Below, in pieces: positions 6,916-42,176 of a stretch of 47,026 bases of DNA (position 1 is its first letter; every line of letters begins with the position of its first letter). The position numbers and the translations under genes were made by a program. The notes under the pieces were generated by a model, which was not told where the DNA came from, did not search any database, and saw only the letters and a list, made by a program, of their open reading frames with translations. The stretch spans positions 1 through 47,026 of IMG/VR virus record IMGVR_UViG_3300000553_000069; one strand, given 5' to 3'. The stretch comes from a virus.

Positions 6916-7404
6916 TTAGAATGCGTACTTAACACCTGTAGTAATTACGTTGCCATTAAATGGTTTAGTGGCACCGTTGCTTTTTTGGTAGTCATAGTCA
7001 GCAGTCAAACTAACCTGTTTGTATACTGGGTAAGCAAAACCAAATCCAACTAACGCAGAAGTACCGTTACCAAGTTTAGAACTGGTGCTTTGCGGATCGA
7101 TGTATGCTAAACCAGCGTGAACATTAGTTGTAATGTTAGCAAATGTAATAACATCATAACTTGCTTTTGCTGTATAACGATTTACATTAAGGCTACCTGA
7201 TGTCGAACGTTCAGCAGTTGCTTGAACACCAACTTTAGCAAGACTTGGATCTAAAGAGCCTAATTTGTCACCAACAGATACACCGCCAGCTTGACGTGTG
7301 CCACCGTTTGTGCCGTGACCCCAATCCCACAACGCACCAACTTCAACAGCTGATGCAAGACCAGTAAATGCTACTAATGCTAATGCTACGATTGCTTTTT
7401 TCAT
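6916..7404 (-). CDS. Outer-membrane beta-barrel protein
   Basis: 162 residues. An N-terminal signal peptide (MKKAIVALALVAFTGLASA) with an AxA-type cleavage site near residue 19 is followed by alternating strands (YTAKASYDVI, LTADYDYQKS) and a C-terminal VKYAF. A final Phe is the assembly signal of Gram-negative outer-membrane proteins. The size suits an 8-stranded barrel of the OmpA/OmpX type. Phage-encoded barrels such as lambda Lom alter the surface of the infected cell; that role is inferred. A single transcription unit with its own promoter (7471-7499), a CTAAATA box at 7441-7447, ribosome-binding site (AAAAGGAAT) and terminator. Confidence 0.85.
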   Translation of the reverse strand: MKKAIVALALVAFTGLASAVEVGALWDWGHGTNGGTRQAGGVSVGDKLGSLDPSLAKVGVQATAERSTSGSLNVNRYTAKASYDVITFANITTNVHAGLAYIDPQSTSSKLGNGTSALVGFGFAYPVYKQVSLTADYDYQKSNGATKPFNGNVITTGVKYAF

Positions 7405-7499: not shown

Positions 7500-7501
7500 C
7501 A

Positions 7502-7527
7502 AAAACGGCACAATTAAGTGCCGTTTT
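7502..7527. terminator. Rho-independent terminator after tmRNA
   Basis: AAAACGGCAC and GTGCCGTTTT form a perfect 10-bp stem around AATTAA, with a T run on the leftward transcript. Ends the tmRNA transcript just before the OMP promoter. Confidence 0.85.
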
Positions 7528-7544
7528 CGACTATTTCCTGTTTC

Positions 7545-7923
7545 GAAGCATAGTTGCTCAAAGCAGTGATTAAACTGCTAAAGTTTGGCGTTGTGCTGTA
7601 CGAGCAGAGAACTTAACGTTCTTACCTGAAACAGTTACTTCGCCTGTATTTGCGTTTGCATTTACGAGTTTTGTTTCTCCGACCAGGCTTCCCCAGTCCT
7701 AACGGCTTCTACATTGCCGATCCTCCAGTAGCCCTTTAGCGCCAATCGATTCTAATTATGGCCCATCAAAAGCATACTGGGTTGCCTGCGCTCGGATGAG
7801 TGAGCCGGTTTTATGCAATATGCTTATGGTGGACCATTCGGGAGTTGCACCCGAGTCTTGATCGCTATACTTCTACCTTCAACGAATTTCTGTTTTGTGG
7901 CATACTCTTTTTAAGCCTGCCAC
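7545..7923 (-). ncRNA. ssrA: Circularly permuted two-piece tmRNA
   Basis: On the leftward strand the 3' tRNA half comes first: T arm TCGGG-TGCAACT-CCCGA (7838-7854), acceptor ATGGTCC (7831-7837), discriminator A and CCA (7827). An intervening segment of about 62 nt (7765-7826, closed by AAGCATA/TATGCTT) follows. The 5' half starts GGGCCAT (7758-7764), pairing at all seven positions with the acceptor. Helix P2 forms between TTGGCGCTA and TAGCGATCAA. The tag frame runs 7659-7573 (ANANTGEV... to QTLAV) with TAA at 7570-7572 in the loop of GCAGT/ACTGC, as in helix P5. tmRNA with SmpB rescues stalled ribosomes and tags the peptide for proteolysis. The tag is 29 codons, unusually long. The outer ends are approximate. 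Confidence 0.85.
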
Positions 7924-7972: not shown

Positions 7973-8176
7973 TTACAGCGGAAGAATATTTGATGCTTGC
8001 TTGCCTTTAGGGCCTGCCACTACATCGAATGTTACCGCTTGATTCTCTTTTAAACTCTTAAAACCATTTGTGCTAATTGCGGAAAAATGTGCAAACAATT
8101 CCTCACCACCAGCATCGGGGGTAATAAATCCAAACCCTTTTGCATCATTAAACCACTTTACTTTACCTGTTGCCAT
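7973..8176 (-). CDS. csp: Cold-shock domain protein (CspA family)
   Basis: 67 residues, the full length of the bacterial CspA family. [15 protein letters not shown] (residues 4-18) contains RNP1 and LFAHFSAI (about 27-34) is RNP2; these aromatic residues bind single-stranded RNA or DNA. The family melts RNA structure and acts as an RNA chaperone. Preceded by a strong promoter (8204-8233) and a ribosome-binding site (GGAAG). The tmRNA lies directly downstream with no terminator between, so both may come from one transcript. Confidence 0.93.
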
Positions 8177-8203: not shown

Positions 8204-8233
8204 ATTATACTACTATTTTACCTATTTTGTCAA
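8204..8233 (-). promoter_or_regulatory. Consensus sigma70-type promoter of cold-shock gene and tmRNA
   Basis: TTGACA, 18 bp, TATAAT, reading leftwards, about 28 nt above the cold-shock start. The only clear promoter upstream of the tmRNA. Confidence 0.8.
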
Positions 8234-8462: not shown

Positions 8463-8538
8463 TGGTGGTCCGGGTAGGACTTGCACCCACACTCCCCGAA
8501 TTATGAGTTCGACGCTTTACTTTTTAAGCTACCGGGCC
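8463..8538 (-). tRNA. tRNA with CAT anticodon (elongator Met or Ile2)
   Basis: Acceptor GGCCCGG/CCGGACC with one C-A mismatch, discriminator A, CCA encoded. Anticodon stem TCGAA/TTCGG with loop CTCATAA gives CAT. G1-C72 is paired, so not an initiator. The GGCCC acceptor resembles bacterial Ile2 (C modified to lysidine) more than Met, but this cannot be settled. The D loop (AAAAAGTA) lacks the GG pair and the T loop reads TGCAAGT, so both partners of the usual loop-loop contact are changed. Confidence 0.8.
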
Positions 8539-13170: not shown

Positions 13171-14403
13171 TTAATTTTTTTGATAAATTGTTTCGATTGC
13201 TTGTACATATTGGTTGACGCAATTTTCTGGAGAATGACGAGTACTAATAATCTCTTGTGCCTTGGCACCTAAATGTTGCCGTTTAGATGCATTTTGATAT
13301 AAGATTTCCATCGCCGTTATTAAATCTGCGTCTTTAAATTCGTCCGTTAATTTCCATACGGCATCATCTGCTAACTCCGCCATACTGCCATTGGCATTAA
13401 CAATAGTTGCTAATCCATAGTTCATACAGTCCAAAACTGCGGCCGAAGTTTCTCCACGTGAATGAGTACGCAATTGAACTCCAATATCAGCCGCTGAAAG
13501 ATAATGATGAAAGGTAGAAGTATCTACCCATCCAGTGATACGAATGTCTATACCACTTTGCCGAATTGTATTAATAAGGTCTTTGCCATATTCTCCGTGC
13601 GCATTTCCCCCAACAAATACTAAAACACAATTGGCATTTTTTGCTAGGATCGAAGCTAGCCATGCGTCGAGTAATCGATGATTTAATTTGGTAGCTCCGA
13701 TAAAACCAAAACTACAAACAACAAAATCATTTTCATTTAAATTTAAAATCTGCCGAGCTTTAGCTCGATCAATACGTATTTTAGGTTCACGTAAAATGGG
13801 AATAACAGCCCAATTATCGTCTGCATTTTTGCCGTACCATTGTACAGCCAGTCGACGCGAACTTTCAGAATGAACAATTACTCCCAAAGATTTTTGAAGT
13901 ACACCTAAGTTGCATGGATATTTCCAAATAATATTCAAAACATTATTTTCATTATCTTGTTCCTGTAAAATAAGTTTGGCGACACCAGGCGGCGCAAGGT
14001 AGCCATGACTATGATATAAAGCATCATTTAAAGCACCCGTCATGACCCCACTTAGGTCTAATCCGGTTATAACCTCAGCTAGGAAAAAATCGTGGAGTAC
14101 AACTATACCCGGTACATTGTCTAATAAACCAAACATGTGGCAATGTAAATTTGAGTTTCCAAAATGATAAAGTATTCTATCATATCGATTGTGGTTTGCC
14201 TTAAACCATTCTAGATTGCGATATTGATAATTGTCATTGGTTTCATGATAAAATTTTGTATCTTCAGGCACAATTACATCAATATTGTAATACTGTGAAA
14301 GTTTGGGCAATAGTTCATAGCTATAGTCACTTATGCCGCTGCGTTCTGGCGGCATGGGAGAAAGATATGCTAGTTTAGTTCGAGCAACGGTATGTGTAGT
14401 CAA
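13171..14403 (-). CDS. GT-B glycosyltransferase, GT4 family
   Basis: 410 residues. N-terminal acceptor domain starts LAYLSPMPPERSGISDYSYEL with the glycine-rich loop of GT4 enzymes. The C-terminal Rossmann domain has FVVCSFGFIGATKLNHRLLDA, VFVGGNAHGEYG, ITGWVDTSTFHHYLSAADIGVQL and RGETSAAVLDCMNYGLA, where the E after G is the usual EX7E nucleotide-sugar site. Transfers a sugar from a nucleotide donor with retention. Target unknown; virion, host surface glycan and modified DNA are all possible. Overlaps the nucleotidyltransferase gene by 4 nt, suggesting joint action. Confidence 0.87.
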   Translation of the reverse strand: MTTHTVARTKLAYLSPMPPERSGISDYSYELLPKLSQYYNIDVIVPEDTKFYHETNDNYQYRNLEWFKANHNRYDRILYHFGNSNLHCHMFGLLDNVPGIVVLHDFFLAEVITGLDLSGVMTGALNDALYHSHGYLAPPGVAKLILQEQDNENNVLNIIWKYPCNLGVLQKSLGVIVHSESSRRLAVQWYGKNADDNWAVIPILREPKIRIDRAKARQILNLNENDFVVCSFGFIGATKLNHRLLDAWLASILAKNANCVLVFVGGNAHGEYGKDLINTIRQSGIDIRITGWVDTSTFHHYLSAADIGVQLRTHSRGETSAAVLDCMNYGLATIVNANGSMAELADDAVWKLTDEFKDADLITAMEILYQNASKRQHLGAKAQEIISTRHSPENCVNQYVQAIETIYQKN

Positions 14404-15838: not shown

Positions 15839-16212
15839 CTAACTTCACTCCTGCCATCGCCAACATCTTTGGATTTAACTACACGGGTAGACATTGCTTC
15901 GTATTGTTCAGCAGTTTCTAAAACTACATTACGACAAACAGCAGTGAACCATCTATCAACAATATCAGCATCAGTGTCTCTAGGATCCATTTGATAACCA
16001 TGTCTAATAAGATCAGCAATCATTTTATCGTTCCAATCAAACTCAAATGAACCATTGTTTATATCAGTAGGATCAATTTCCATGCTTAATACTTCAAAGT
16101 ATGGTTCGCCTTTTTCTGTAGCAATTTGTTTGGCTGATTTAAGTTGTTCAAGTGCTACTGCGGCAATTTTTTTCTTTTTAAATATATCAAATAATCCCAT
16201 TATGTTCCCCAA
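15835..16212 (-). CDS. Hypothetical protein below queE
   Basis: 125 residues. Begins MGNIMGLFDIFKKKK; a second ATG (MGLFDIF) follows 4 codons later and may be the real start. Contains EPYFEVLSMEIDPTDINNGSFEFDWNDKMIADLIRHGYQ, which reads like a compact alpha/beta phage protein. Overlaps queE by 13 nt and the next gene by 4 nt, so co-expressed with the deazaguanine enzyme. Function unknown. Confidence 0.7.
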   Translation of the reverse strand: MGNIMGLFDIFKKKKIAAVALEQLKSAKQIATEKGEPYFEVLSMEIDPTDINNGSFEFDWNDKMIADLIRHGYQMDPRDTDADIVDRWFTAVCRNVVLETAEQYEAMSTRVVKSKDVGDGRSEVS

Positions 16213-17054
16213 GCGTTTTTGAACAAAGGAACTTGAAGTCTATCACTATATCGTAGTCCATTTGCCATTGCTAATTCTGCTACTCGTTTATTGTTAAGTG
16301 AATAAACGCTTTCAACTCCACCTACAGGCATTAAGTAAATAGATCCGCCAAAACCTGCAGCTTGAAAGGTACTGGCTGCGGCCAATGCTTCTTCTACGTC
16401 TTCCTCGGTGGCAACTACAAATTTTAAATATGTATGACCAATTTCTTGATAACCACAAACAACTTCAGGTTTGATAGCATCTTCCCTTGATTCGCCACTA
16501 TTGCTTAGTTTGGCACTAACACTAAATGTAAGTTTTTCTCTATCACGACCAAACCTGGTCCAGTCTTCAAACAAATAATTTCTAAATTCTTCTGTTAATG
16601 CCTGTGTGCCATTAGTTTCAAAAGTAAGCTCTTGTAAGTCTACCATATTTTCATGTTCTAATAAAGCTGGATACGATCTCTGCCACCCTAGTAAAGGCTC
16701 TCCCCCAGTAATAACTAAATGTTCACCACCCCATTGTTTAAATGGCAACATTTCCATTATGCGCTCAACAATTAAATCTGTTTCTAATAACGGAGATAAA
16801 TCTTTAAAACGCGGGTCCCAACTAGCATAACTATCGCAACCTGTAGAAACTAACGGCAACTCGTCATATGAAGAAAACATATGAACAACTTCGACAATAT
16901 CTTCTACTTCTGTGCTAAGTTGACCTTTAGGCATACCAAACCCGGAACAGCGGAAATTGCAGCCGAATGTACGTAAGAATACACTCGGAACCCCCATATA
17001 GCGACCTTCGCCCTGAATGCTATAAAATAACTCAGCTACTTTTAATTTACTCAA
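16200..17054 (-). CDS. queE: 7-carboxy-7-deazaguanine synthase with split Fe-S motif
   Basis: A radical SAM enzyme that converts 6-carboxy-tetrahydropterin (from QueD) to 7-carboxy-7-deazaguanine. Visible motifs: YSIQGEGRYMGVPSVFLR, the QueE substrate region, and ITGGEPLLGWQ, the SAM-binding GGE motif. The cluster cysteines are CNFRC followed by 36 residues before GCDSYASW, instead of the usual CxxxCxxC; CDSYASW matches the family CDTxYxW, so an insertion splits the motif. The core starts at LKVAEL. I place the start at TTG 17054, overlapping the TGA of the upstream gene; the ATG at 17090 would overlap it by 40 nt. About 284 residues. Confidence 0.88.
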   Translation of the reverse strand: MSKLKVAELFYSIQGEGRYMGVPSVFLRTFGCNFRCSGFGMPKGQLSTEVEDIVEVVHMFSSYDELPLVSTGCDSYASWDPRFKDLSPLLETDLIVERIMEMLPFKQWGGEHLVITGGEPLLGWQRSYPALLEHENMVDLQELTFETNGTQALTEEFRNYLFEDWTRFGRDREKLTFSVSAKLSNSGESREDAIKPEVVCGYQEIGHTYLKFVVATEEDVEEALAAASTFQAAGFGGSIYLMPVGGVESVYSLNNKRVAELAMANGLRYSDRLQVPLFKNAWGT

Positions 17055-17551
17055 TTTTTCCACCAATCTTCCCAAGGAAATACGATCCACTGATCTTCTT
17101 CGGCTTTGTTTATTGTAACACCAGAATATCTAATGTCAAGCTCTGAATTGCTCGATTCATTATCAATCAATGTAGCCACTCGAACACTTTCCCCCCATAC
17201 ATTGTTCCAATCTGGGTGATTGCATAAACAACTACTTGACCAATCTTCTTTGATATAGTTTAGGGTAGCACCAGAATCGTTAATGTCATCGATAATAAGA
17301 ATTTTTTTGCCTTGAAACGCATCTTCCGCCATCCATAAGTTACTTTCGGGCTGGCTACTATCATCTCGCAAACTTACTTTAAGAGTTTCCATTGGGATAT
17401 TTAAATATTGGCTAATAAGATTAGCTGGTACTAGCCCTCCTCTGGTAATACCTACAACATAGTCCGGCTGCCAATTATCAAGATGAATTTGACGTAAGAT
17501 TTCTTGGCAATGTTTTTCTACGTTTCGCCAACTTAAAAATACTTTTTTCAT
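17051..17551 (-). CDS. Phosphoribosyltransferase (Gpt/Xpt-like)
   Basis: 166 residues of type I phosphoribosyltransferase fold. ILIIDDINDSGATL (about 95-108) is the PRPP-binding motif and ITRGGLVPANLISQYL (about 35-50) the first loop. The length and VVGITRGGLVPA fit xanthine/hypoxanthine phosphoribosyltransferases. Lying directly upstream of queE, it could salvage purines or convert a deazaguanine base to its nucleotide; the latter is speculation. It has its own promoter (17581-17609) and ribosome-binding site AGGAAC. Confidence 0.82.
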   Translation of the reverse strand: MKKVFLSWRNVEKHCQEILRQIHLDNWQPDYVVGITRGGLVPANLISQYLNIPMETLKVSLRDDSSQPESNLWMAEDAFQGKKILIIDDINDSGATLNYIKEDWSSSCLCNHPDWNNVWGESVRVATLIDNESSNSELDIRYSGVTINKAEEDQWIVFPWEDWWKN

Positions 17552-17580: not shown

Positions 17581-17609
17581 ATTATATACTATCTACAGAA
17601 ATTTGTCAA
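17581..17609 (-). promoter_or_regulatory. Consensus sigma70-type promoter of the PRTase-queE operon
   Basis: TTGACA, 17 bp, TATAAT, a perfect match reading leftwards; 30 nt above the ATG at 17551. Overlaps the last codon of the epimerase gene. Confidence 0.82.
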
Positions 17610-18496
17610 CCTAATATTTGTTGAATTCCTGCTTCGAAACTCATAGGTTCATAATCGGGCATAATTGAACGTAATTTTGAAATATCTGGGCGACGATTTG
17701 AAGGGCTTCCTTGCATACTTGGTAGTATTTCAAATTTAGCGTTTGGATAACCAAGGTTTTTAGCAATAATTTTAACCGCATCGCCAATAGTGATTTCGTT
17801 ATCGTTGCCAATATTGATTAATTGACGGTCAATATTTTCGGCAACATAAATGGAGGCACGAGTAGCATCACTTACATGACAGAAGCTACGAGTTTCGTGT
17901 GGGCCAATTACTGTAAAAATACCATTTTGTATTTTGTTAATTTGATCACCTAAAAAATGTCCTTGTTTACTGTTTTCTCCATAAACATTAAAGTAGCGTA
18001 GTGTAACATATGGCAGATCGGAATTGGCCAAATAATTTTCAGAAGTAATTTTAGCTAATCGATAACTCCAGCGAGCATTGTGTATATCTTTAATCACAAC
18101 GTTGGTATTTTCGGAAACAGGACTAGTAGGATCATCAGCTACCACTTCCGAACTTGATGCGTATACCAACCTCTTTAAATTAACACATTTGCGAGCAAAG
18201 TTAAAAATATTTAAATCGCAAACAAAATTATTGGCCAATACTTTGTTAGGCATTTTATAAAAGTTAGTAGTGCCGTTGATAGCGCCATAGTGATAAATGT
18301 AATCAAAATCTGTAGGAAGTTGATTGAGATCATCTACATTGTTTAAATCAATTCTGTACCATTCGTCACAACTTGGAATAGTTGTGCTACGGCTATGATT
18401 GTCTATGGCATAAACAATATGTCCGGCTTCCTTAAACTGACGACAGAATTCTGTACCAAGTAAGCCGCTGGCACCTGTAACTAAAATTTTACTCAT
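17606..18496 (-). CDS. NAD-dependent sugar epimerase/dehydratase (extended SDR)
   Basis: 296 residues. GASGLLGTEF at residues 7-16 is the GxxGxxG NAD(P) site; AIDNHSRS is the typical adenosine-ribose loop; YASSSEVV and SYRLAK give the catalytic Ser and YxxxK. RYFNVYGENS is the substrate-binding motif of nucleotide-sugar epimerases. Acts on a nucleotide sugar (4-epimerisation or 4,6-dehydration). It belongs to a five-gene run of sugar enzymes with 3-4 nt overlaps ending here. Confidence 0.9.
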   Translation of the reverse strand: MSKILVTGASGLLGTEFCRQFKEAGHIVYAIDNHSRSTTIPSCDEWYRIDLNNVDDLNQLPTDFDYIYHYGAINGTTNFYKMPNKVLANNFVCDLNIFNFARKCVNLKRLVYASSSEVVADDPTSPVSENTNVVIKDIHNARWSYRLAKITSENYLANSDLPYVTLRYFNVYGENSKQGHFLGDQINKIQNGIFTVIGPHETRSFCHVSDATRASIYVAENIDRQLINIGNDNEITIGDAVKIIAKNLGYPNAKFEILPSMQGSPSNRRPDISKLRSIMPDYEPMSFEAGIQQILG

Positions 18497-19266
18497 TTAC
18501 CCAATCCTTCATTGTCTTTTTGTATAGCATCGATCATAGAATAGTTTAAACCTAAATTCTTGACCAAATTGGCCCAAGCACTTGTATCTTTTGGCAAACA
18601 ATGCCCACCAAATCCTCGCAAGTTATCATTACACATCAAGTATGCTGGATTAAAACACTCTCTTTTGATAATAGCTTCGTACACATTATTATAATCAACT
18701 CCTAATGCTTTGCAAACATCATACGCAATGTTAGCAAAAATAATTTGTGCAGAATGATTAACGTTGTTAAAATATTTGATAACTTCTGCTTCTGCGGGTT
18801 TTACACAAGCAACATTTTGTGGTAATTTGCCATGAATGGCTTTAACAATAATATAATCTTCTTCGCGATCGCTACCAATTACTAGTAAATCATGATTATA
18901 CATGAAGTCAGCTAATGCTGTTTTAGCACGTAGGAATTCTGGAACGGAGCAAATACGCAAGTTAGGGTATTGCGCAGCTAACTTATTACAAGTACCTGGA
19001 ACACAAGTGCTCTTAAGACCTACTAAACCTTTATATCCAGCAACATCCAATTCCCCAACCACTCGTTCAACAATACCTGTATCACAATCACCATTGGGCG
19101 CTTGATTAGTTGGCACACAGATGAATACACACTCTGCTCCTATCACGTCATTGAGCGTTGACCCTTCATACGCTGGGTCAAAAAATGACATTTGATGACC
19201 TAAGTGATTTAATCCTTCGTATACTGCTTTACCTACGGTGCCTTTGCCTATAATTCCAATTTTCAT
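18493..19266 (-). CDS. UDP-glucose/GDP-mannose 6-dehydrogenase-like, short form
   Basis: 257 residues. IGIIGKGTVGKAVYEG is the N-terminal Rossmann fold; FICVPTNQ, STCVPGTC and GFGGHCLPKDT (catalytic Cys, about residue 226) match nucleotide-sugar 6-dehydrogenases, which oxidise UDP-glucose to UDP-glucuronate. The usual length is about 390-450; the C-terminal UDP-binding domain is missing, so activity or partner use may differ. The protein ends with a clean stop overlapping the epimerase start, so this is not a sequencing break. Confidence 0.85.
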   Translation of the reverse strand: MKIGIIGKGTVGKAVYEGLNHLGHQMSFFDPAYEGSTLNDVIGAECVFICVPTNQAPNGDCDTGIVERVVGELDVAGYKGLVGLKSTCVPGTCNKLAAQYPNLRICSVPEFLRAKTALADFMYNHDLLVIGSDREEDYIIVKAIHGKLPQNVACVKPAEAEVIKYFNNVNHSAQIIFANIAYDVCKALGVDYNNVYEAIIKRECFNPAYLMCNDNLRGFGGHCLPKDTSAWANLVKNLGLNYSMIDAIQKDNEGLGK

Positions 19267-19866
19267 TCAGTTCTCCTCTGGATACTTCATATCAATTAAC
19301 TGATTAGAGTTAACTGATGCCATACTTAATATTTCTTGTGCTACATCTTCGGGCTCTAAACATACAGCCGAAGTTTTAACGTCAATCATTGCGGTACGTG
19401 TTTTAACTGGATTAATTAATCCTACTGTGATATTATTGCCTTTAAAGTATTCACAAGCACCTTGCCATATATTATATAGTGCGGCTTTACTGGCTGCGTA
19501 TAAAATATAATCTTTACGACCTGATTTATAAGCACTAGATCCTACCATGATAATTTTAACAGGTTTATCGTTACCTTCCTTGTTAATGTAATAACGAATT
19601 ATAGACCAATTAGATCCAACATTGATATCAAAAGTATTAGAGTGTGTTTCAAAATTTGATTTATCAAAATGCCCTACACAATTTACTACTACATCCGGAT
19701 CTGTTTGAGCCAATAATTCTTCTACTTGAGTATGGCTTTGTATATAAACAAAATTAATATTTCCACTGCTAACCGGGGTGACAAGATACCCCGCATTTCT
19801 AAATGCTTTGCAAGTTGCTGATCCAATTCCGCCACTAGATCCAAATATAACTGCTCGTTTAGTCAT
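19267..19866 (-). CDS. Short-chain dehydrogenase/reductase
   Basis: 199 residues. FGSSGGIGSATCKAF is the GxxxGxG coenzyme site; VVNCVGHFD the NNAG-like motif; MVGSSAYKSG the catalytic Ser and YAASKAALYN the YxxxK pair. Slightly shorter than the usual 240-250. Redox partner enzyme of the sugar cluster; substrate unknown. Follows the cupin gene with an 8-nt overlap. Confidence 0.85.
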   Translation of the reverse strand: MTKRAVIFGSSGGIGSATCKAFRNAGYLVTPVSSGNINFVYIQSHTQVEELLAQTDPDVVVNCVGHFDKSNFETHSNTFDINVGSNWSIIRYYINKEGNDKPVKIIMVGSSAYKSGRKDYILYAASKAALYNIWQGACEYFKGNNITVGLINPVKTRTAMIDVKTSAVCLEPEDVAQEILSMASVNSNQLIDMKYPEEN

Positions 19867-20269
19867 TGGGTATAATCGATTCTACGCGGATAGTATCTGA
19901 CTCATAATCCTCGCCACCACGTGGGCCTTGAGCAAAAGCAATCAGTGTACAACCTTCTGGACCTGTACGCCAAGCGTGTATTTCATTAGGTTCAGAGATA
20001 ATAAATTCACCAGCACCTGCTGTAATAACATTAGCTGGCTCTTCACTACCAACAGGTTTAGAGTAGTAATCAATAGAACCTGTCAGTATGTAAGTGTACT
20101 GTGTGGTTAACTTGTGATAGTGATTAGCACGAATAGCCCCTGGGGTATTAGTAATAAGGCAACCAGAGTTCATATCTATCAAATGGAAAATATCTGTAAT
20201 ACTTCCGCGGTCGTCTGTAAATTGACCTAACTTAGGTTCTGTGTTGTTGTAAATGTTGTAATGTTTCAT
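19859..20269 (-). CDS. Cupin protein, sugar 3,4-ketoisomerase/epimerase-like
   Basis: 136 residues of single cupin fold. GQFTDDRGSITDIF and RANHYHKLTTQYTYILTGS (cupin motif 1, His pair) are followed by EFIISEPNEIHAWRT (motif 2). The DDRG start and size resemble the FdtA/WxcM and RmlC-like sugar isomerases or epimerases acting on dTDP-4-keto sugars. The neighbours (C-methyltransferase, epimerase, SDR) support a role in making a modified deoxysugar. The exact reaction is not determined. Confidence 0.8.
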   Translation of the reverse strand: MKHYNIYNNTEPKLGQFTDDRGSITDIFHLIDMNSGCLITNTPGAIRANHYHKLTTQYTYILTGSIDYYSKPVGSEEPANVITAGAGEFIISEPNEIHAWRTGPEGCTLIAFAQGPRGGEDYESDTIRVESIIPND

Positions 20270-21495
20270 TGTGATATAAACTTTGTGTTAGGGTTGATTT
20301 TGAGTAATGCGTTTTTTAGTGACTCGCCAATATTCCAGCTTAGTACCAAAGCATAAGGATTAGTGTGTTGGGCAAATTCATCATCGCCACGAATAGGAAT
20401 ACGACTTAATGGAGTATACTTTCCTTGTTTAAACTCACTAGCATCGGTGATACAATTCAAGTGTGTTTTGTTAAGTCCATGCCAAGTTAACCATGTATTA
20501 GCTTTGGCGGCAGCTCCTACCCCAATAATAACAGCTTTTGGTTCTTTATCCAATATTTCATAAAAGTTTAATAGCCACTTGTTACGTTGAGTTTCAAATT
20601 TAGTTTGTAATTTCTCATAAAATTTAATATCAAATAATCCCATGGCAGTTTCGTTTTCAATAGTGCCGCGAACTAAAAACGGCATTCCGTTATCAGTACT
20701 GTGTCTAGCAATAACACGAAGACTGCCTCCGTGATAATCAACAACGTCAAAGTCTGCTATTTCTAATCCCACTTGTTGTAACAAGTTCCAAATGCTTTTA
20801 ACAGTAAAGTAACTGATATGTTCGTGATATACCATATCAACAAATCGTTCACTTTCAATCATACTAGCCCAATATGGAGCTTCGAATACAAATACACCAT
20901 CCTTGGCTAGTAAGTCAGCTACAGCACTAGCAAACGCAACTGGATCGTTAGCATGATTGAATACATTGTTTGCCATAATAACACTAGCTGGACCTTCAGC
21001 TATTTCAAGTGCCGCCGCAACATCCTTACTAAACAATTCGTTAATAGTTTCTACTCCACGCTCTTTGGCTATGGCACACATAGCGGCACTAGAGTCGATA
21101 CCAATAGCCTTAGTTTTTTCGTTACTAAACTGGCCGATAAGATATCCATCGTTACTGCCAATCTCTACTACAAGACCTTCTGTGTTGAATTTACCTTTAA
21201 TGGTATTGGCATATTCATCCCAGTGTTTTCGGGCAGTTTTGCTGTTACTGGAAGTATAACTATAGCTATACAAATTGTAACGATCTTCTGCGTCACTAAC
21301 ATAACCCAATTGTAATCCACCTGAGCTAGGATTTAAATGTAGTTGTAGTGGGAAGACTGGTTCAGACATACGCAACTGATCTTCTGCAATAAATGTATCG
21401 GCATAAGCGTGTTGACCAAAATCTAAAACTTTTGTAACGAACTCGCCTGTAATCAAACAGCGGTCTAAATGTGCGCTTTCAGTTATTTTACTCAT
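20266..21495 (-). CDS. NDP-sugar C-methyltransferase family protein
   Basis: 409 residues with the three-part layout of TylC3-type C-methyltransferases: an N-terminal domain (CLITGEFVTKVLDFG, where the usual zinc Cys set is reduced), a central SAM domain (VVEIGSNDGYLIGQF, about 110-124), HEHISYFTV with its active-site His, and a C-terminal domain (VIIGVGAAAKANTWLTW). Family members add a branched methyl to C3 of a 4-keto deoxysugar. It heads the overlapping sugar gene run, 4 nt into the cupin gene. Confidence 0.85.
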   Translation of the reverse strand: MSKITESAHLDRCLITGEFVTKVLDFGQHAYADTFIAEDQLRMSEPVFPLQLHLNPSSGGLQLGYVSDAEDRYNLYSYSYTSSNSKTARKHWDEYANTIKGKFNTEGLVVEIGSNDGYLIGQFSNEKTKAIGIDSSAAMCAIAKERGVETINELFSKDVAAALEIAEGPASVIMANNVFNHANDPVAFASAVADLLAKDGVFVFEAPYWASMIESERFVDMVYHEHISYFTVKSIWNLLQQVGLEIADFDVVDYHGGSLRVIARHSTDNGMPFLVRGTIENETAMGLFDIKFYEKLQTKFETQRNKWLLNFYEILDKEPKAVIIGVGAAAKANTWLTWHGLNKTHLNCITDASEFKQGKYTPLSRIPIRGDDEFAQHTNPYALVLSWNIGESLKNALLKINPNTKFISQ

Positions 21496-22334
21496 TATTG
21501 TTTTATAGTAGTTTGTATCATTTGTTTGTTAACATCATTTTCCCGAAGTTTTTGCCAGGGATCTTGTTGTCCTGCTTTAACTTTTCCCCAAAATGAAGTA
21601 TCTTTTCCTTTGGATTTTAAATAGTTTGCTATTACTTCAGTATCCTGAAGCCTTCCCTGCCCAAAAGAAACATGATGAAAATCTTCTGGGTTATTAGGAT
21701 TTCCCTCCAGTAATTTTCGATTCTTATATGTGAGGTCTTGATTGCTTCCGGTTAAGTCATGTCTGTCATGCGTAGCATAAATTTCAACTATTTCCATTAT
21801 GTCAAGCATGTAAGCTATTTGACTAAGCTCAGCATCGGTCATTTGATGTCTAGTAACGAATCCAAATAAGTCAAACCATTCTTTTGGAAATATAGGAAAA
21901 ATAGAATATGGATGTTCACGGTGTACGTGAATCTTTAATAGTTTAAATTCTCCGTCGTGGCCGGTAACAATTTTGTCCCATCCGGTAGTTTCCATGAGAG
22001 CATCATCATTCCAAACAAATAACCAATCGGCTGTAGCTTCTTTTGCCAACCCGTTATAGTAGCGATTTAACCCAATGTAGCCCATGGGCTCAAATAACAT
22101 GACTGTATAATGTGCGCCTTTTTCTTCCAACCAAGGTTGTATGCTTTGTTGAAAATAACGTAATCCAACTTCATCATCATTATCAAAACCTAGTATAAGT
22201 TGTACGCTATCTAAATCTAATACTCGATTAAAGATGCTGATTACACTTAATTTTAGTGCGGTTGTTCTACCACGAGTGGGTAGCAATACTGCTATTTTAT
22301 ATTCATTAACTTTAAGTGTTTTAGACTTTGCCAT
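21495..22334 (-). CDS. Glycosyltransferase-A fold protein (GT2-like)
   Basis: 279 residues. IAVLLPTRGRTTALKLSVISIF is the N-terminal nucleotide-sugar site of GT2 enzymes; LILGFDNDDEVG and ADWLFVWNDDALM (DxD-like, about 105-117) would bind the metal and donor. The C-terminal part ends SFWGKVKAGQQDPWQKL. Probably transfers the sugar made by the downstream enzymes. It overlaps the methyltransferase start by 1 nt. Confidence 0.82.
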   Translation of the reverse strand: MAKSKTLKVNEYKIAVLLPTRGRTTALKLSVISIFNRVLDLDSVQLILGFDNDDEVGLRYFQQSIQPWLEEKGAHYTVMLFEPMGYIGLNRYYNGLAKEATADWLFVWNDDALMETTGWDKIVTGHDGEFKLLKIHVHREHPYSIFPIFPKEWFDLFGFVTRHQMTDAELSQIAYMLDIMEIVEIYATHDRHDLTGSNQDLTYKNRKLLEGNPNNPEDFHHVSFGQGRLQDTEVIANYLKSKGKDTSFWGKVKAGQQDPWQKLRENDVNKQMIQTTIKQ

Positions 22335-23405: not shown

Positions 23406-23909
23406 TTATGCAAAAAGGTCTTCGTCCCAACATCTATGCCCCTCTCTAAAAGCCATATTTGATTGTGTTTCGCGAACTTCCACACGATAGCACCATAAAC
23501 GGTCAGCTTCAGCACTACCCCACATATCTGGAATATAAACACCGTTGACATATTTGTAAAGTTGATCTGCTAGACCTTCACACCCAAGTTTAGGAAGGAT
23601 AGTAAGTTTGGCTAATTTACGCTTTTCCATTTCTTTATAAAAGTTTAGCTCTGGATCATCCTCTGCTACTAGTAAAGTATGATCAAATTGACTTTCTAAA
23701 ATACCTTTAAGTTCTTTCAAGCCACCATAATCGGCTGCCCAGTTACGCACATCCAAGTCGTTTGTGCCAAAATAAAACTTCATACTAAATGCGTAGCCGT
23801 GAATTAAGTTACAATGACTGTCTGCTCTCCATTGACGATAAGCGCAAGGAAATGCGTTGTGATACTCTTTGGTACTTGTATATTTGTATTGAATTGCTTG
23901 GTTTGCCAT
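23406..23909 (-). CDS. queD: 6-carboxy-tetrahydropterin synthase
   Basis: 167 residues of the T-fold PTPS/QueD family. SHCNLIHGYAF (about 31-41) aligns with the CxxxHGH motif: the catalytic Cys (C33) and one zinc His (H37) are present, but the last zinc His is Tyr (Y39). FDHTLLV (about 85) and GCEGLADQLYKYV (about 116) are the conserved dimer-interface and PTAENLA-like parts. Converts 7,8-dihydroneopterin triphosphate from FolE into the substrate of QueE. Own promoter at 23928-23956, ribosome-binding site GGAG. Confidence 0.85.
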   Translation of the reverse strand: MANQAIQYKYTSTKEYHNAFPCAYRQWRADSHCNLIHGYAFSMKFYFGTNDLDVRNWAADYGGLKELKGILESQFDHTLLVAEDDPELNFYKEMEKRKLAKLTILPKLGCEGLADQLYKYVNGVYIPDMWGSAEADRLWCYRVEVRETQSNMAFREGHRCWDEDLFA

Positions 23910-24534: not shown

Positions 24535-24634
24535 CTAAAACGGCAGGGCAAGCAAAAAAATCAATCACTTAAATATCGATCCAACAAAAACTTGGAGAGA
24601 TAATGGGTTCGGATTACTTGCCGTTTCTTGATTG
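24534..24634. repeat. Inverted repeat at the end of folE
   Basis: AAACGGCA (in the last folE codons, about 24624-24632) is complementary to TGCCGTTT near 24538-24545, and GGCAAG/CTTGCC extend the pairing; a small CCAA/TTGG hairpin lies between. Perhaps a terminator-like structure or boundary of the insert. Confidence 0.4.
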
Positions 24635-25414
24635 TAGTTTAATATTATCGTAAAACTCTTTCTTAGTACCCATATCGCTATTAAAAGCCCCAAGTAGTAC
24701 CGCTGTTTGTGTTAACGAACTATGAGCCATAATGCCCCTGTTAATGCAACAGCCATGCTCACATTCGATATAAACCCCTACATCTTTACTACCTGTTGCT
24801 TTCATTATTTCTCTTGCGATGTCGTTACACAATTCTTCTTGAAGTGTACCACGGCGAGCACACCACTGAGCAATGCGAGTATACTTACTAAGTCCAATAA
24901 GCCTGTCAGCAGCAATGATCCCAATATAAGCGACCCCAACGACAGGCTGATGGTGATGACTACACATACTACGGAGCTCACTCCGTACAACCAACATACC
25001 TTCATATCTATCCTTGCTATTATTTGGAAATGCTGTACAATCTGGGGCAGGTTCATAGCGACCAGCCATGATTTCGGTAAAATACATTTTAGCTAGTCGC
25101 TTGGCTGTACCGTGACTATTAGGATCGTTTTCACGATCAATCAATAGTGTGTCCAACACTTTTTCAAAAGCTTCTGTGGCTTCCTTGATTAGGATTTCCT
25201 TATCACCTTCGTGTAAGTAATCACTAATATTATCACCAGCCCAAAAACGTTTTTTATCACGCTTCATTTTAAAGCGGATAGCGTCTGCTAGGTTAGTTTC
25301 TTTGTAACCTTTGTCGCTCATATTCATTGCGGCATCTTCGTATCCAGGATGATACGGGGCTTCTTCAACTAGTTTATTTGCGTTAATTCTATCTTCTGTT
25401 GTAAATGATGTCAT
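24614..25414 (-). CDS. folE: GTP cyclohydrolase I
   Basis: 266 residues. Makes 7,8-dihydroneopterin triphosphate from GTP, the first step towards 7-deazaguanine (and folate). Zinc ligands are seen in SMCSHHHQP (C151, H154) and ECEHGCCINRG (C222/C223). GLSKYTRIAQWCARR and HGTAKRLAKMYF are family signatures. About 75 extra N-terminal residues precede the usual start of the fold. The last codons (KKEFYDNIKLQ) recur in the duplicated tail at 24301-24360, so the present 3' end may have been supplied by the insert. Promoter at 25433-25462. Confidence 0.93.
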   Translation of the reverse strand: MTSFTTEDRINANKLVEEAPYHPGYEDAAMNMSDKGYKETNLADAIRFKMKRDKKRFWAGDNISDYLHEGDKEILIKEATEAFEKVLDTLLIDRENDPNSHGTAKRLAKMYFTEIMAGRYEPAPDCTAFPNNSKDRYEGMLVVRSELRSMCSHHHQPVVGVAYIGIIAADRLIGLSKYTRIAQWCARRGTLQEELCNDIAREIMKATGSKDVGVYIECEHGCCINRGIMAHSSLTQTAVLLGAFNSDMGTKKEFYDNIKLQSRNGK

Positions 25415-25465: not shown

Positions 25466-26539
25466 TTATTTTAAATTGTTTAATAAATTTGTCGCCGAAA
25501 AGAATCGTTCGGTTAAACTTTTGGCTTGTTTAGCAATGTATGGTCTTCGAATATCATATGTTTCGATATCTTCAAATATAGTTTTACATATATCTGCTCG
25601 ATGTAATTCATATGATTTAAAGTTTTTGGTCCAAGCACTGGGATATTTAAAATTATCTTGATACATTTCTCGATAACTTAATCTATCGGGAACAAGAGGA
25701 ATACAATCTAATATGGCTCCCTCGTAACAACTAATTCCCAATGTTTCTTGTAAGTTGGCACTGAATACTATTTTTGCTTCACCTAACAATGTGTGATATT
25801 CGTGCTTAGTTAATTGATGGTCTTGACAAACAACGAATTCATAGTCTGGTAACCAATGTGCCAAATCTCTAAATATTTCAACTTGTTTTTCTGGAGCGAT
25901 TCTGTGCGGGAATACGATTAAATCGCGTTTAGGTAAATTTTTATATGGAGCCAACGTTTCCTCCATATATTCCATTGGCCATCCTGTTTGTACAATCTTT
26001 CCTAACTCTTTAAAACCATCAATAGTTTGTGTCATTCCAATATGTAACAAATTCTTACAAAACATATTGATATGGAATTCGGTAGCAAAGTAGTTATGAT
26101 CAAATGCTTCAAAGAAACTCTTCTCAGCGAATCTAACCCAAGGTTTATCTCCAATTAAACGCCCTAGAAAATCTTCAGGATCATAACTACCGCTGTGCCA
26201 TAAACCGTGTAGTGTTACAGGAATCTGTAATAACTCACTCATGTATTTTAAGTTGATGACACCAGGATGCCAAGCATCGGTAAACAAGAAGTGATCGCCA
26301 GGCTGTACTGATCCGGCGCAAAATAGACGCCCCATTTGTTCAACTTGACTAGACTTGTATATATTGGTGCCACCAAAATTAAGAAAAGCACCAGGAGTAG
26401 TGGCTGAAGGAATATCCTCAGGCCCAGAGATAACTTGAACATTGTGTCCTGCCTTGCGTAAAAGTGTTGGTAAGTGAGTTTTCCACTCGCAAGTATAACG
26501 AGTGGAAACACTTTCGAGATCGACTAAAAAAACGGTCAA
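25466..26539 (-). CDS. GT-B glycosyltransferase-like protein
   Basis: 357 residues. The second half has LIVFPHRIAPEKQVEIFRDL, EFVVCQDHQLTKHEYHTLL and FSANLQETLGISCYEGAILDCIPLVPDRLSY, the EX7E-type donor site of GT4 enzymes (E in QETLGISCYEG). The N-terminal half (VDLESVSTRYTCEWKTHLP, FLNFGGTNIYKSS) is phage-specific. Could glycosylate DNA, virion or host surface; unknown. It overlaps the next small gene by 4 nt. Confidence 0.8.
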   Translation of the reverse strand: MTVFLVDLESVSTRYTCEWKTHLPTLLRKAGHNVQVISGPEDIPSATTPGAFLNFGGTNIYKSSQVEQMGRLFCAGSVQPGDHFLFTDAWHPGVINLKYMSELLQIPVTLHGLWHSGSYDPEDFLGRLIGDKPWVRFAEKSFFEAFDHNYFATEFHINMFCKNLLHIGMTQTIDGFKELGKIVQTGWPMEYMEETLAPYKNLPKRDLIVFPHRIAPEKQVEIFRDLAHWLPDYEFVVCQDHQLTKHEYHTLLGEAKIVFSANLQETLGISCYEGAILDCIPLVPDRLSYREMYQDNFKYPSAWTKNFKSYELHRADICKTIFEDIETYDIRRPYIAKQAKSLTERFFSATNLLNNLK

Positions 26540-29815: not shown

Positions 29816-29994
29816 TAATCGTTGGACTCGTGGTTATATTTTAATTTAAGAATTTTATCACGCAAATGTAATTTTTGTTTTTTTAAAACTTCAAGGGTTA
29901 CATCATCAAACACGCCTGTACTTTCCAAACCATCAATTCGTTTGTTGAGTGCTATATGTTCTTCTTCTAATTTTTTAAGTCGAGTGTTAGGCAT
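29815..29994 (-). CDS. YdcH/DUF465-like small protein
   Basis: 59 residues from ATG 29994 (MPNTRLKKLEEEH), chosen over the ATG at 30027 because it has GGAAAATA upstream and removes a 41-nt overlap with the gene above. LKKLEEEHIALNKRIDGLE and LEVLKKQKLHLRDKILKL form the two helices of DUF465 proteins. Function unknown in the family. Confidence 0.7.
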   Translation of the reverse strand: MPNTRLKKLEEEHIALNKRIDGLESTGVFDDVTLEVLKKQKLHLRDKILKLKYNHESND

Positions 29995-31711
29995 TACTAT
30001 TTTCCAATTCATCAAGTTTAGATTCATCTAATCCAGAATCATCAAGATAATGTTCATCTGGCTCTGGTTCTTCTGCAGCAAATAAATTGCTAAACATGGT
30101 ACTAGCATTAACAGTTTTTTTGCCTGTAGCCCCGCGGGTGCCAATAATGCTTTGCCAAAACTTATCATACAAATCAATAATAGCAATGGCAGTTTCGCGA
30201 TCTGGAGCAGAAAATATAGCTTCTATTACATCTTTAAAGTATACAGTATCAAAGCGTTCATCTACAAGCATATTGGGACATTTGCCAGCATCGTATTCTC
30301 GATTAGCACGTTGTACCGATTCTAAATGCAACCAAACATTGTGACTCATTAGTAATGCGTAACTAAACGAATCCCAAGAGGTTTTACCTTCTTTACCAAT
30401 TTTGTTTAGCATTCCTGGTTGATAATAACAAACATCTTTAATTTGTAAATTTTTACTAACAGGACTATCATCAAAATGACCAATTAATCCATCTTGTAGC
30501 ACAGCATCGCGGTATGAACGTGTATCAGTGGAGTACTTTTTATTGTCAGCAATAAAACTCATACGATAACACCACTTTTGTCTGTCTTCAATATCTATTT
30601 GATGATACACTTGACCGTTAGCAGTTGCCAAAAATGGACTGGCACAGTCAAACGATATAGTAAAACTTGGGTTTACATACTTGCGAATGGCACGCTGAAT
30701 ATCTGTTAATAGTAATGCCCATTCTAATTTACTTGTGCCTAAGAAATGCATCCAATCGTGTTGCCCTTCTTTAAGCAATCCATCAAACTTCAAGGCTACC
30801 AATCTCCGCAAGACTAAGTCTACATCACACATATTCTGGCCGCCCATGGCCCAACCATTAAATGCTTTATCACCGTAGATGTTTGGATCGCAAAAGTCTT
30901 TCATTTGTGCATACCAGTCATCTGCTTGTGCGTGATTCTCACCTTGTAGTACATTTAAAAACTTACAGTTACCATTGCGATGTTTAATAAAGTATTCGTT
31001 GTTATATTTGGTAGCTTCAACCGCTTGTTGATATGATTCAATACCTGTTGCTTTACGACCCGCCGGACTGCGTTCTACCCAAGCCGGGATATCAAGAACC
31101 ATGCCATAGTCCATAATACCATCCATCCAAGTGAGGACCGCTTCACGTTTTTTCTGTGCCGCATCTAATTTGTTTTGATAATCTTTTACGTGATCAATTT
31201 TAGTGTACTTGGTGTTACCATTTTTATCATGTTTGGGTGTGCCATCTGGTTTAAGCGCAGGAACTTGTTCAATGCCTTTAGCTTGAGCTTCTGCCATCTT
31301 AGCTCGAACTTCTGGTCCATTGGGATCACGCCATTCACCGGCCCACACACCTTTACCAATTTGGAAACCACCCGAATCACCCAATACAAATGTATTAGCA
31401 CGGTCACGATTTCGTATCATATCTTCGTTCCAATCTTGCTTAGTGAGATCTAAGTTGGCATGACCAGCCGAATACAAACTCCACTTGTATGGAAATAATC
31501 CTTTTTGTTTGTTTAACCAGTTAAGCATTTCCATATCTTTGATCTTTGCAGGCATACGAGTAGGAGCTACAAAAGGTCCACTACGCTGTTTGCCAATAAA
31601 AGTACCATAGAAGCCGCTAAGAGCCGGAAGGAACAATGCATAGTCCGACTGCTTGGCAGTAAGATCGTCCTGTACTATTGGTTCAGGTGTTGGGGTGTTT
31701 TCTTTGATCAC
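29987..31711 (-). CDS. dpdA: DpdA-like DNA deazaguanine transglycosylase (TGT fold)
   Basis: 574 residues. TGT-family motifs: VLGDSGGFQIGKG (about 110-122), where DSGGFQ carries the catalytic Asp; FNGWAMGGQNMCDVDLVLRRL with the GGx loop; MHFLGTSKLEWALLLTD replacing the GVG motif; and ISFDCASPF, the nucleophile region. Phage DpdA proteins exchange guanine in DNA for a 7-deazaguanine; classical TGT acts on tRNA. The length exceeds ordinary TGT (about 380) and a charged linker (DHVKDYQNKLDAAQKK) is inserted at about 170-190. With folE, queD and queE in the same window the DNA role is favoured. Its N-terminus overlaps the clamp gene stop by 4 nt. Confidence 0.82.
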   Translation of the reverse strand: MIKENTPTPEPIVQDDLTAKQSDYALFLPALSGFYGTFIGKQRSGPFVAPTRMPAKIKDMEMLNWLNKQKGLFPYKWSLYSAGHANLDLTKQDWNEDMIRNRDRANTFVLGDSGGFQIGKGVWAGEWRDPNGPEVRAKMAEAQAKGIEQVPALKPDGTPKHDKNGNTKYTKIDHVKDYQNKLDAAQKKREAVLTWMDGIMDYGMVLDIPAWVERSPAGRKATGIESYQQAVEATKYNNEYFIKHRNGNCKFLNVLQGENHAQADDWYAQMKDFCDPNIYGDKAFNGWAMGGQNMCDVDLVLRRLVALKFDGLLKEGQHDWMHFLGTSKLEWALLLTDIQRAIRKYVNPSFTISFDCASPFLATANGQVYHQIDIEDRQKWCYRMSFIADNKKYSTDTRSYRDAVLQDGLIGHFDDSPVSKNLQIKDVCYYQPGMLNKIGKEGKTSWDSFSYALLMSHNVWLHLESVQRANREYDAGKCPNMLVDERFDTVYFKDVIEAIFSAPDRETAIAIIDLYDKFWQSIIGTRGATGKKTVNASTMFSNLFAAEEPEPDEHYLDDSGLDESKLDELENSNA

Positions 31712-36545: not shown

Positions 36546-37910
36546 CTATTCGAAAGTAAACAAACTGCTAGGATCTGATTTTTCCTCCGGCAACAAGTTA
36601 CTTCCTCGATTTCTATAATATGTTTCGTTATAACTATGTAACACTTCTACAGCTTCTACCGCCGGTAGTCGTAACATTTTATATATTTCATCTGTACAAA
36701 AAGAATTATGAGTATCAGTAAATTCTTTATGATTTATTAAACCCACGGTTCCCAATTCTGTGTGAAAGTTATTTTTGTGAACGGTTGTGATTTTTTTTCG
36801 GGTAGCCAATTTGACTAATTGCTCACTAATAGTTTTATGACGTGCTGTTAATATGTCTTGTACTTCTTTGATAACTCCTGCTCCATATACTGATTTAAGT
36901 ACATCAGCGGCTTCACTTTCTTCCACTATAACAGCATAGTCTTTATGTGCGTAGCTCCAATCATGTTTAGATAGTAATACAGTAGGGCAACTGTGAGCAG
37001 TTTCTAATGCTCCTAATCCAAAAGTTTCACTAACTGCTGGATGATATGCAGCCGCCAAACTTTGTATAATTCTTGTTTTTTCCGCGCCAGTGACACCCAC
37101 GTGAATTTTATACTCAATACCTTCTTGTTTAAAACGTTCCTTAAATTTCTTAGCAGATGTTTCTGATGGCACCAGTACTACGCCAGGTAATCCCGAGGCT
37201 TTAAGTGCGGCAATATATGCTTCGGGATTTTTACGTGGTTCCCAAGGGCCAACAAATCCTACTCCCCAACGTTCTGTTGGCAATGTGCTAAAATCAAGTA
37301 ATTCTTTTTCTGGAACTAATGGAGGCACAACTAAACATTCAGTCACTTTGTCAGGATATTGTGTTTGAGCATTTTCTTGTATCCAATCACTTTGGCAAGC
37401 CAGTAGTACATCGGGTAAGTTACATAAAGCGCGATAACGATCGGTTACACCAGGAGCAAAAATGTCATGTTTAACTTTAACTCCAGCTTCGGATTCATGA
37501 TGCGTAGGATGTAGTACTGTGCAATATTTGTGTACACCAATACCAGTTACAGCATCCAATGCTTCGCCAGTATTTGTAATTATCATATCGTAAGTATGAT
37601 GACGCAATGCGTAAACTAATGCGTTACGAAAATTAATGCTCAGTGTGGTATCAAATGGTTTTGAAAAAGAAGCCAGTTCTTTGTAAACATTATCATCTAT
37701 GGTAGTAGGAGGACTAATCCACTGAACCCGTAATTCATATTGATCAAATAAACCATCACGTCTTACAGGAGCATCAGAAATGACATCAACGTGGTATCCT
37801 AAACTTAATGCCCAATCAATAATACTTTTAGCATAAGCACCTACCCCGCGATAAACAAAGTTAGTGCGGGCAACCAGTATACCAATTCGTTTAGTAGATT
37901 TAAGTGTCAT
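36546..37910 (-). CDS. GT-B glycosyltransferase, GT4 family
   Basis: 454 residues. IGILVARTNFVYRGVGAYAKSI is the N-terminal glycine-rich loop; VGFVGPWEPRKNPEAYIAAL begins the donor domain, and AAYHPAVSETFGLGALETAHSCPTVLLS carries the EX7E site (E in SETFGLGALE). Retaining sugar transferase with unknown acceptor. The ATG is only 5 nt below a TATCAT -10 box, so a leaderless message is likely. Third GT-B gene in the window. Confidence 0.88.
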   Translation of the reverse strand: MTLKSTKRIGILVARTNFVYRGVGAYAKSIIDWALSLGYHVDVISDAPVRRDGLFDQYELRVQWISPPTTIDDNVYKELASFSKPFDTTLSINFRNALVYALRHHTYDMIITNTGEALDAVTGIGVHKYCTVLHPTHHESEAGVKVKHDIFAPGVTDRYRALCNLPDVLLACQSDWIQENAQTQYPDKVTECLVVPPLVPEKELLDFSTLPTERWGVGFVGPWEPRKNPEAYIAALKASGLPGVVLVPSETSAKKFKERFKQEGIEYKIHVGVTGAEKTRIIQSLAAAYHPAVSETFGLGALETAHSCPTVLLSKHDWSYAHKDYAVIVEESEAADVLKSVYGAGVIKEVQDILTARHKTISEQLVKLATRKKITTVHKNNFHTELGTVGLINHKEFTDTHNSFCTDEIYKMLRLPAVEAVEVLHSYNETYYRNRGSNLLPEEKSDPSSLFTFE

Positions 37911-41735: not shown

Positions 41736-42176
41736 TCACTCTCTAGATTCTTTTAAAAAACTTGATAGCATCCAGATATACTTATTAGTAGCAGTTAATC
41801 TTTCAGCAATAAAATTTGCGATGTCTTGTTTATTTTCTGCTGTGGCAGCAGCAAAACATTCATTGAGAAGTTCAATCATAATATGTGAGTCATGCAATAA
41901 CTCTTCTATCATTAGTTGTGCTCTTGGCACTTTAGTTTGATCTTGAATACGTGATAGTTCTTGATAACGAGTTAGGCTTCCCGGGGCATATTCGTCTAGT
42001 GTGCGAATAAATTCCGCAATAGTATCTACAGCCCCGTAAGCATCTTCGTAGATTTTTTGTAGGAATTTGTGATATTGATAGAAGTCTTTGCCTTCTACTG
42101 ACCAATGAAAAAAGTGTGCTTTAAGGTAATAAGTAAATGTAGAAGCAAGTAGCACTTTTAATAATTCAGCAAGCAT
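41736..42176 (-). CDS. dps: Dps-like ferritin-fold protein
   Basis: 146 residues, four-helix ferritin type. LKAHFFHWSVEGKDFYQYHKFLQKIYEDAYGAVDTIAEFIRTL matches the Dps pattern HWxVxGxxFxxxHxxFxxxY...DxxAE, including the ferroxidase His, Asp and Glu at the dimer interface. Dps proteins oxidise iron, store it and shield DNA. On a phage it may protect DNA in the cell or be carried in the virion; the neighbours are presumed virion proteins. Ribosome-binding site AAAGGAT; a CTAAATA box at 42202-42208 lies upstream. Confidence 0.82.
   Translation of the reverse strand: MLAELLKVLLASTFTYYLKAHFFHWSVEGKDFYQYHKFLQKIYEDAYGAVDTIAEFIRTLDEYAPGSLTRYQELSRIQDQTKVPRAQLMIEELLHDSHIMIELLNECFAAATAENKQDIANFIAERLTATNKYIWMLSSFLKESRE

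Follow-up and report, generated by a model that had tools for sequence, protein, structure and literature searches.

A circularly permuted tmRNA gene with a 29-residue tag frame in a fragment of a large T4-like lake phage

When a phage carries its own transfer-messenger RNA (tmRNA), is this simply a copy of the bacterial molecule or does it write a different tag? The question is raised by a locus in IMG/VR virus record IMGVR_UViG_3300000553_000069, of which positions 1 to 47,026 (the whole stretch analysed, called here the window) make up 47 kb of the genome of a large T4-like phage from a lake. The DNA polymerases closest to that of the window are those of the jumbo phages Phosso and Atu_ph07 (46-50% identity). 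A first-pass annotation, made from the sequence alone, had described a phage-encoded, circularly permuted tmRNA on the minus strand. This is borne out by the sequence itself, by a match of 66.3 bits to the Rfam family tmRNA_permuted (RF04321), by the structure and by covariation among relatives. The annotation overlooked the most unusual part of the gene, a tag of 29 residues that ends in LAV.

The whole gene occupies approximately 7887-7570 of the minus strand. Alignment with RF04321 defines an acceptor piece (7827..7887, with a putative 5' end) and a coding piece (7570..7764, with a putative 3' end), which includes the acceptor 5' strand, the D-loop analogue, the P2 5' strand, an upstream structured region and the tag frame. 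Between the CCA and the acceptor 5' strand is an intervening segment of 62 nt (7765..7826), which would be removed on processing. The order is permuted: the CCA (7829-7827) comes before the acceptor 5' strand (GGGCCAU, 7764-7758). The latter pairs at seven of seven positions with the 3' strand (AUGGUCC, 7837-7831). The third acceptor pair is G3.U70, the alanine identity element, and the discriminator is an A (7830). The T-arm (UCGGG-UGCAACU-CCCGA) extends from 7854 to 7838, and helix P2 is formed by 7745-7738 paired with 7866-7858, with one bulge. The CCA-bearing 3' half lying ahead of its 5' half, the complete acceptor pairing and P2, all described in the first-pass annotation, are therefore present in the sequence. 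The tag frame with its stop (ANANTGEVTVSGKNVKFSARTAQRQTLAV*, 29 residues, 7570..7659) starts at the resume codon GCA (7659-7657), within the resume motif UAAAUGCAAACG, and runs as GCA...GUU (7659-7573) to a UAA stop (7572-7570). That this stop lies in a hairpin loop, as had also been proposed, holds in part: a hairpin with the UAA in its loop can be drawn (AGCAGU/ACUGCU, 7579-7574/7567-7562), but the minimum-energy fold pairs part of this region differently. The 3' domain has a folding z of -4.2, to which a terminator hairpin contributes. The gene order, the tRNA-like domain with G3.U70 and CCA, P2 and the resume motif are shared with the families RF04321 and RF01850.

The covariance-model and ARAGORN searches suggested in the first-pass annotation gave opposite answers. 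RF04321 matches the gene from end to end and above its cut-off of 47 bits (E 1.1e-10 for the whole window, model positions 1-213). The alpha_tmRNA model (RF01849, cut-off 50) reaches 41.1 bits, over positions 80-179 only. The beta_tmRNA model (RF01850, cut-off 84) is not listed for the window, in a search which kept only the best clan member, and gives 33.8 bits with a near relative, L217. While the window scores low with these older clade models, its sister genes with long tags exceed the beta_tmRNA cut-off (L208, L003 and L096, 115-134 bits, with 134 bits for L208). ARAGORN makes no tmRNA call at the locus. The statement that no automated gene call covers the gene is thus true of ARAGORN but not of Rfam 15, which includes RF04321. 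ARAGORN does call relatives with a near-identical tag (that of L053 differs by one residue). Tag length was considered as a reason for the omission and rejected, since relatives with tags of 29-34 residues are called; our guess is that the unusual T-loop is the likelier reason.

The window's tag and its flanks recur in three contigs from other samples (L011, L047 and L095). G3.U70 and the discriminator A are present in all 49 parsed phage relatives. In these, acceptor pairs 1-3 are invariant and pairs 4-6 each occur as three standard pair types; because the parser demanded at least six acceptor pairs (it did not demand G3.U70), these counts are biased towards pairing. The first three pairs of P2, which was not used in selection, are formed in all 24 distinct helices, with compensatory changes on both sides. 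The parsed sequences are related and the counts do not represent independent events. Beyond these relatives, a nucleotide search of 50,697 phage records with the gene gave no match, and a tblastn search of the same records with three long tags gave nothing or chance hits at E 9. The tag-start pattern was found at 15 places in 85,462 species genomes. One of these alone is tmRNA-like when a tag frame and a preceding CCACCA are required (L201, a contig of an alphaproteobacterial metagenome-assembled genome (MAG) with a 21-residue tag and an RF04321 score of 131.7 bits). Separately, an alphaproteobacterial genome (G317:C5:288554-288812) has a second permuted match of 84 bits beside one of 133 bits, perhaps carried by a prophage or an island.

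A permuted phage tmRNA as such is not new, because such genes have been published and are common in the present data. The Melnitz paper reports 53 two-piece structures identified by ARAGORN among the tmRNAs of 18,146 phage genomes (PMC9004378), and our pattern scan of uncultured phages includes at least 96 permuted ARAGORN calls in 120 loci. The rarity assumed in the first-pass annotation does not stand. Methylophage Melnitz and the other aquatic phages of that paper resemble the window in being large, T4-like and equipped with a permuted tmRNA. The paper deals with a glutamine riboswitch and an alphaproteobacterial type, whereas the gene of the window has an upstream cold-shock gene and beta-type relatives; the part of the paper available to us does not mention long tags. 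Huge phages have been reported with tmRNA, identified by ARAGORN, and with SmpB (PMC7162821), and a jumbo Sinorhizobium phage has been annotated with a tmRNA (PMC11242549). The isolate Phosso carries an alpha-type permuted tmRNA (RF04321 113 bits, alpha_tmRNA 108 bits) whose tag, from our own translation of the sequence, is a normal one (ANDNVSTKVALAA).

It is in its tag that the window's gene differs from the known families, where tags are usually of 10-15 residues and end in AA. A short tag ending in AA is usual for RF04321 without being a formal requirement; the window tag has neither feature and ends in QTLAV within its subfamily. For bacteria, 35 permuted genes detected by ARAGORN (7 in a Burkholderiales draw, 28 alphaproteobacterial) all have tags of 10-15 residues ending in AA, although this set was taken from the best-scoring matches and the baseline leans to typical genes. 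An exception beyond those 35 is another alphaproteobacterial MAG contig (L221), with a 21-residue tag. Phage genes found by their start motif or by a neighbouring cold-shock gene yielded 78 distinct tags, of which 73 are of 21-34 residues and one is of 19; this set is biased by the start motif and its tRNA-like domains were checked in part only. The ends are LAA (30 tags), LAV (16), FAV (8), VLA (4) and others. A separate scan, for the T-arm and acceptor, identified at least 71 permuted tags that differ from one another. Of those listed, 53 have 9-14 residues, 18 have 20-32 (including L364, apparently a false call) and none has 15-19. The permuted tags of phages therefore fall into two length classes, of about 9-14 and 20-34 residues. 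No tag peptide matched Pfam. When the fetched loci were searched for further occurrences of the inserts, that of the window's family turned up in tag-like frames only.

How might such a tag arise? Sister genes of 10, 13, 24 and 31 codons can be aligned with common flanks and differ in length in frame. The difference is located after GCAAAC (GCAAATACA) and before a beta-type end (for example, NDERFELAA in L208). Since the bacterial norm is 10-15 residues, we read the extra length as a putative insertion that keeps the frame and separates the resume codons from a beta-type tag. In the window subfamily (codons 6-20, 21 sequences) the ratio of nonsynonymous to synonymous change (pN/pS) is 0.36 in frame compared with 0.79 and 1.75 in the shifted frames, and in the TFDF subfamily it is 0.29 compared with 1.5 and 2.0. 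Two of the three insert families tested thus appear to be under protein-level constraint. Since similarity of the peptides was the criterion for assembling the families, and by itself lowers in-frame pN, the ratios lend support without being conclusive.

The tmRNA gene is adjoined on its 5' side by a cold-shock protein gene, csp (7973..8176, minus strand, 67 amino acids, Pfam CSD E 2e-28), a neighbour that recurs in many related phage loci. With a perfect sigma-70 consensus ahead of csp and, beyond the tmRNA, a 12-bp hairpin and T run, the two genes probably form one transcription unit. The promoter-like site (TTGACA-18-TATAAT, 8204..8233, minus strand) matches at 12 of 12 consensus positions, although consensus alone is not proof of function; the terminator-like hairpin (7501..7530, minus strand) was defined from the fold and sequence and was not listed by the pattern scan. 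Further 5' is a tRNA-Met(CAU) gene (8463..8538, minus strand, found by ARAGORN and Rfam) with its own promoter-like site from the promoter scan (8584-8556, minus strand). The T-loops of this tRNA (8463-8538) and of the tmRNA (7854-7838) both begin UGCAA, not UUCGA or UUCAA. Contigs G010 and L107 have the same succession of tRNA-Met, csp and tmRNA. Among loci fetched for csp, some of them on near-identical contigs, 39 of the 78 with a recognisable csp motif have such a tag frame within 1.5 kb. In the matches listed for the T-arm and acceptor scan, csp precedes 10 of 17 genes with a long tag and 3 of 58 genes with a short one (Fisher p 5e-6, in a test that ignores relatedness and excludes L364); in another set of loci, 14 of 43 long-tag genes have a csp on their 5' side. 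The link between csp and the long tag is common, not general. In eight loci (L003, L008, L049, L096, L099, L320, L326 and L329) some 37 nt separate the csp stop from the tmRNA T-arm that follows it, and in the alignment the tmRNA core begins within a few bases of that stop; cutting of the precursor would therefore cut the csp mRNA at or near its end.

Some phages may carry both types of tag. In G010 (the contig of L115, 235812 bases) there are two permuted tmRNAs approximately 29 kb apart (143658-143932 and 172862-173101), one a long-tag gene beside tRNA-Met and the other with a 10-residue tag, ANDESYALAA. The neighbours of the second copy are phage-like by eye from their translations, and a chimeric assembly is possible. 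Loci L220, L282 and L283 are also listed under this observation. No SmpB gene was found in 18 phage contigs, some of them fragments, and no SspB gene in 20, some possibly fragments. The beta-type relatives suggest a betaproteobacterial host. In an order represented by a Burkholderiales MAG, only 8 of 200 genomes drawn pass RF04321, and one of those 8 has a one-piece tmRNA according to ARAGORN.

Other minus-strand genes of the window were also noted. Directly 3' of the tmRNA (6916-7404) is a small beta-barrel protein resembling outer-membrane proteins, with a signal-like N-terminus and a score below the Pfam cut-off. Genes for a QueE-like radical SAM protein (16200-17090), a 6-pyruvoyl tetrahydropterin synthase-like protein (23406-23909), GTP cyclohydrolase I (24614-25414) and a DSGGFQ-motif protein (29987-31711) perhaps represent a 7-deazaguanine DNA modification pathway; the last resembles transglycosylases and has no Pfam match. 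Glycosyltransferase-, sugar epimerase- and nucleotide-sugar-type proteins were recognised by eye (13171-14403, 17606-22334, 25466-26539 and 36546-37910), in a number unusual for a phage, together with a ferritin-like (Dps-type) protein (41736-42176).

We consider it probable that the locus encodes a working permuted tmRNA of a T4-like phage whose long tag would alter the fate of the proteins that receive it. The gene most likely acts together with host SmpB. By analogy with known two-piece tmRNAs, processing of the precursor would yield separate acceptor and coding pieces, which pairing in the acceptor stem and P2 would keep joined. Host alanyl-tRNA synthetase would charge it with alanine through G3.U70. 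Once charged, the molecule would bind SmpB and, in infected cells, free ribosomes stuck on broken mRNAs, and the rescued proteins would receive the 29-residue tag. In the window's subfamily, AV replaces the final AA. We propose an altered fate because the C-terminus is changed and because the E. coli tag variant AAV is degraded more slowly than LAA (PMC9382460): in the simplest case the tagged proteins would be poorer substrates of host ClpXP, or they may be sent to another protease. A parallel is found in Mesoplasma florum and other Mollicutes, whose SsrA tag is also longer than that of E. coli, has a changed C-terminus and is read by Lon instead of ClpXP (PMC9382460). That tag is bacterial and ends in NYAFA, and we claim no sequence similarity to it.

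Several observations weigh against this proposal. The RF04321 score is modest, and the T-loop (UGCAACU) departs from the usual UUCGA form, most relatives having UUCGACU or UUCGAUU. As 30 of the 78 tags end in LAA, the degradation end has not been lost throughout the long class. Protein-level constraint is little in evidence in the TFEY subfamily (pN/pS 0.58 in frame compared with 0.64 and 1.03 shifted) and absent from the C-terminal third of the window subfamily's tag (1.04). The last three points would also fit an ordinary phage tmRNA in which the extra length is neutral, or kept for RNA folding only, and whose tagged proteins are broken down in the usual SsrA-dependent way; in such genes RNA constraint likewise reduces synonymous change. 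This explanation is quite conceivable, but we do not favour it: two insert families have in-frame ratios of 0.36 and 0.29 compared with 0.8-2.0 in shifted frames, and 16 LAV and 8 FAV ends indicate a consistent change, not drift.

Lack of an identified SmpB gene in the 18 phage contigs would also be compatible with a decoy that ties up host SmpB and so inhibits host tmRNA. There is a precedent in mycobacteriophage DS6A, which also carries a tmRNA-derived RNA, but a tRNA-like one only, for which such a role has been proposed; a similar molecule is reported to inhibit tmRNA (PMC4131195). The window's family keeps the coding piece, the resume motif and the tag frame, for which a decoy would have no need, and we consider this role improbable. 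More improbable still is a decayed gene of host origin, non-functional in this phage. The omission by ARAGORN and the modest Rfam score are what such a gene might give, but the seven acceptor pairs, G3.U70, the T-stem, P2, the resume codon and the open frame are all intact, the relatives covary, two tag families are constrained, and the csp-tmRNA pair has a consensus promoter on its 5' side and a terminator-like hairpin on its 3' side.

A more far-reaching possibility, which we put forward tentatively and think rather unlikely, is that large phages have reprogrammed trans-translation, so that rescued proteins receive a phage-selected peptide of 20-34 residues whose added part is itself functional and directs them to a fate chosen by the phage, in some cases alongside a second tmRNA with a normal tag. 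If this were true, the added part might lead proteins to a different protease, stabilise them or act on host proteins. ARAGORN, which has been used in published phage surveys, overlooks part of these genes. The long tag peptide can be searched for in the proteomes of infected cells and its effects tested in a laboratory two-piece tmRNA system. A discrete class of long, partly selected tags thus offers a handle on why some phages carry a tmRNA.
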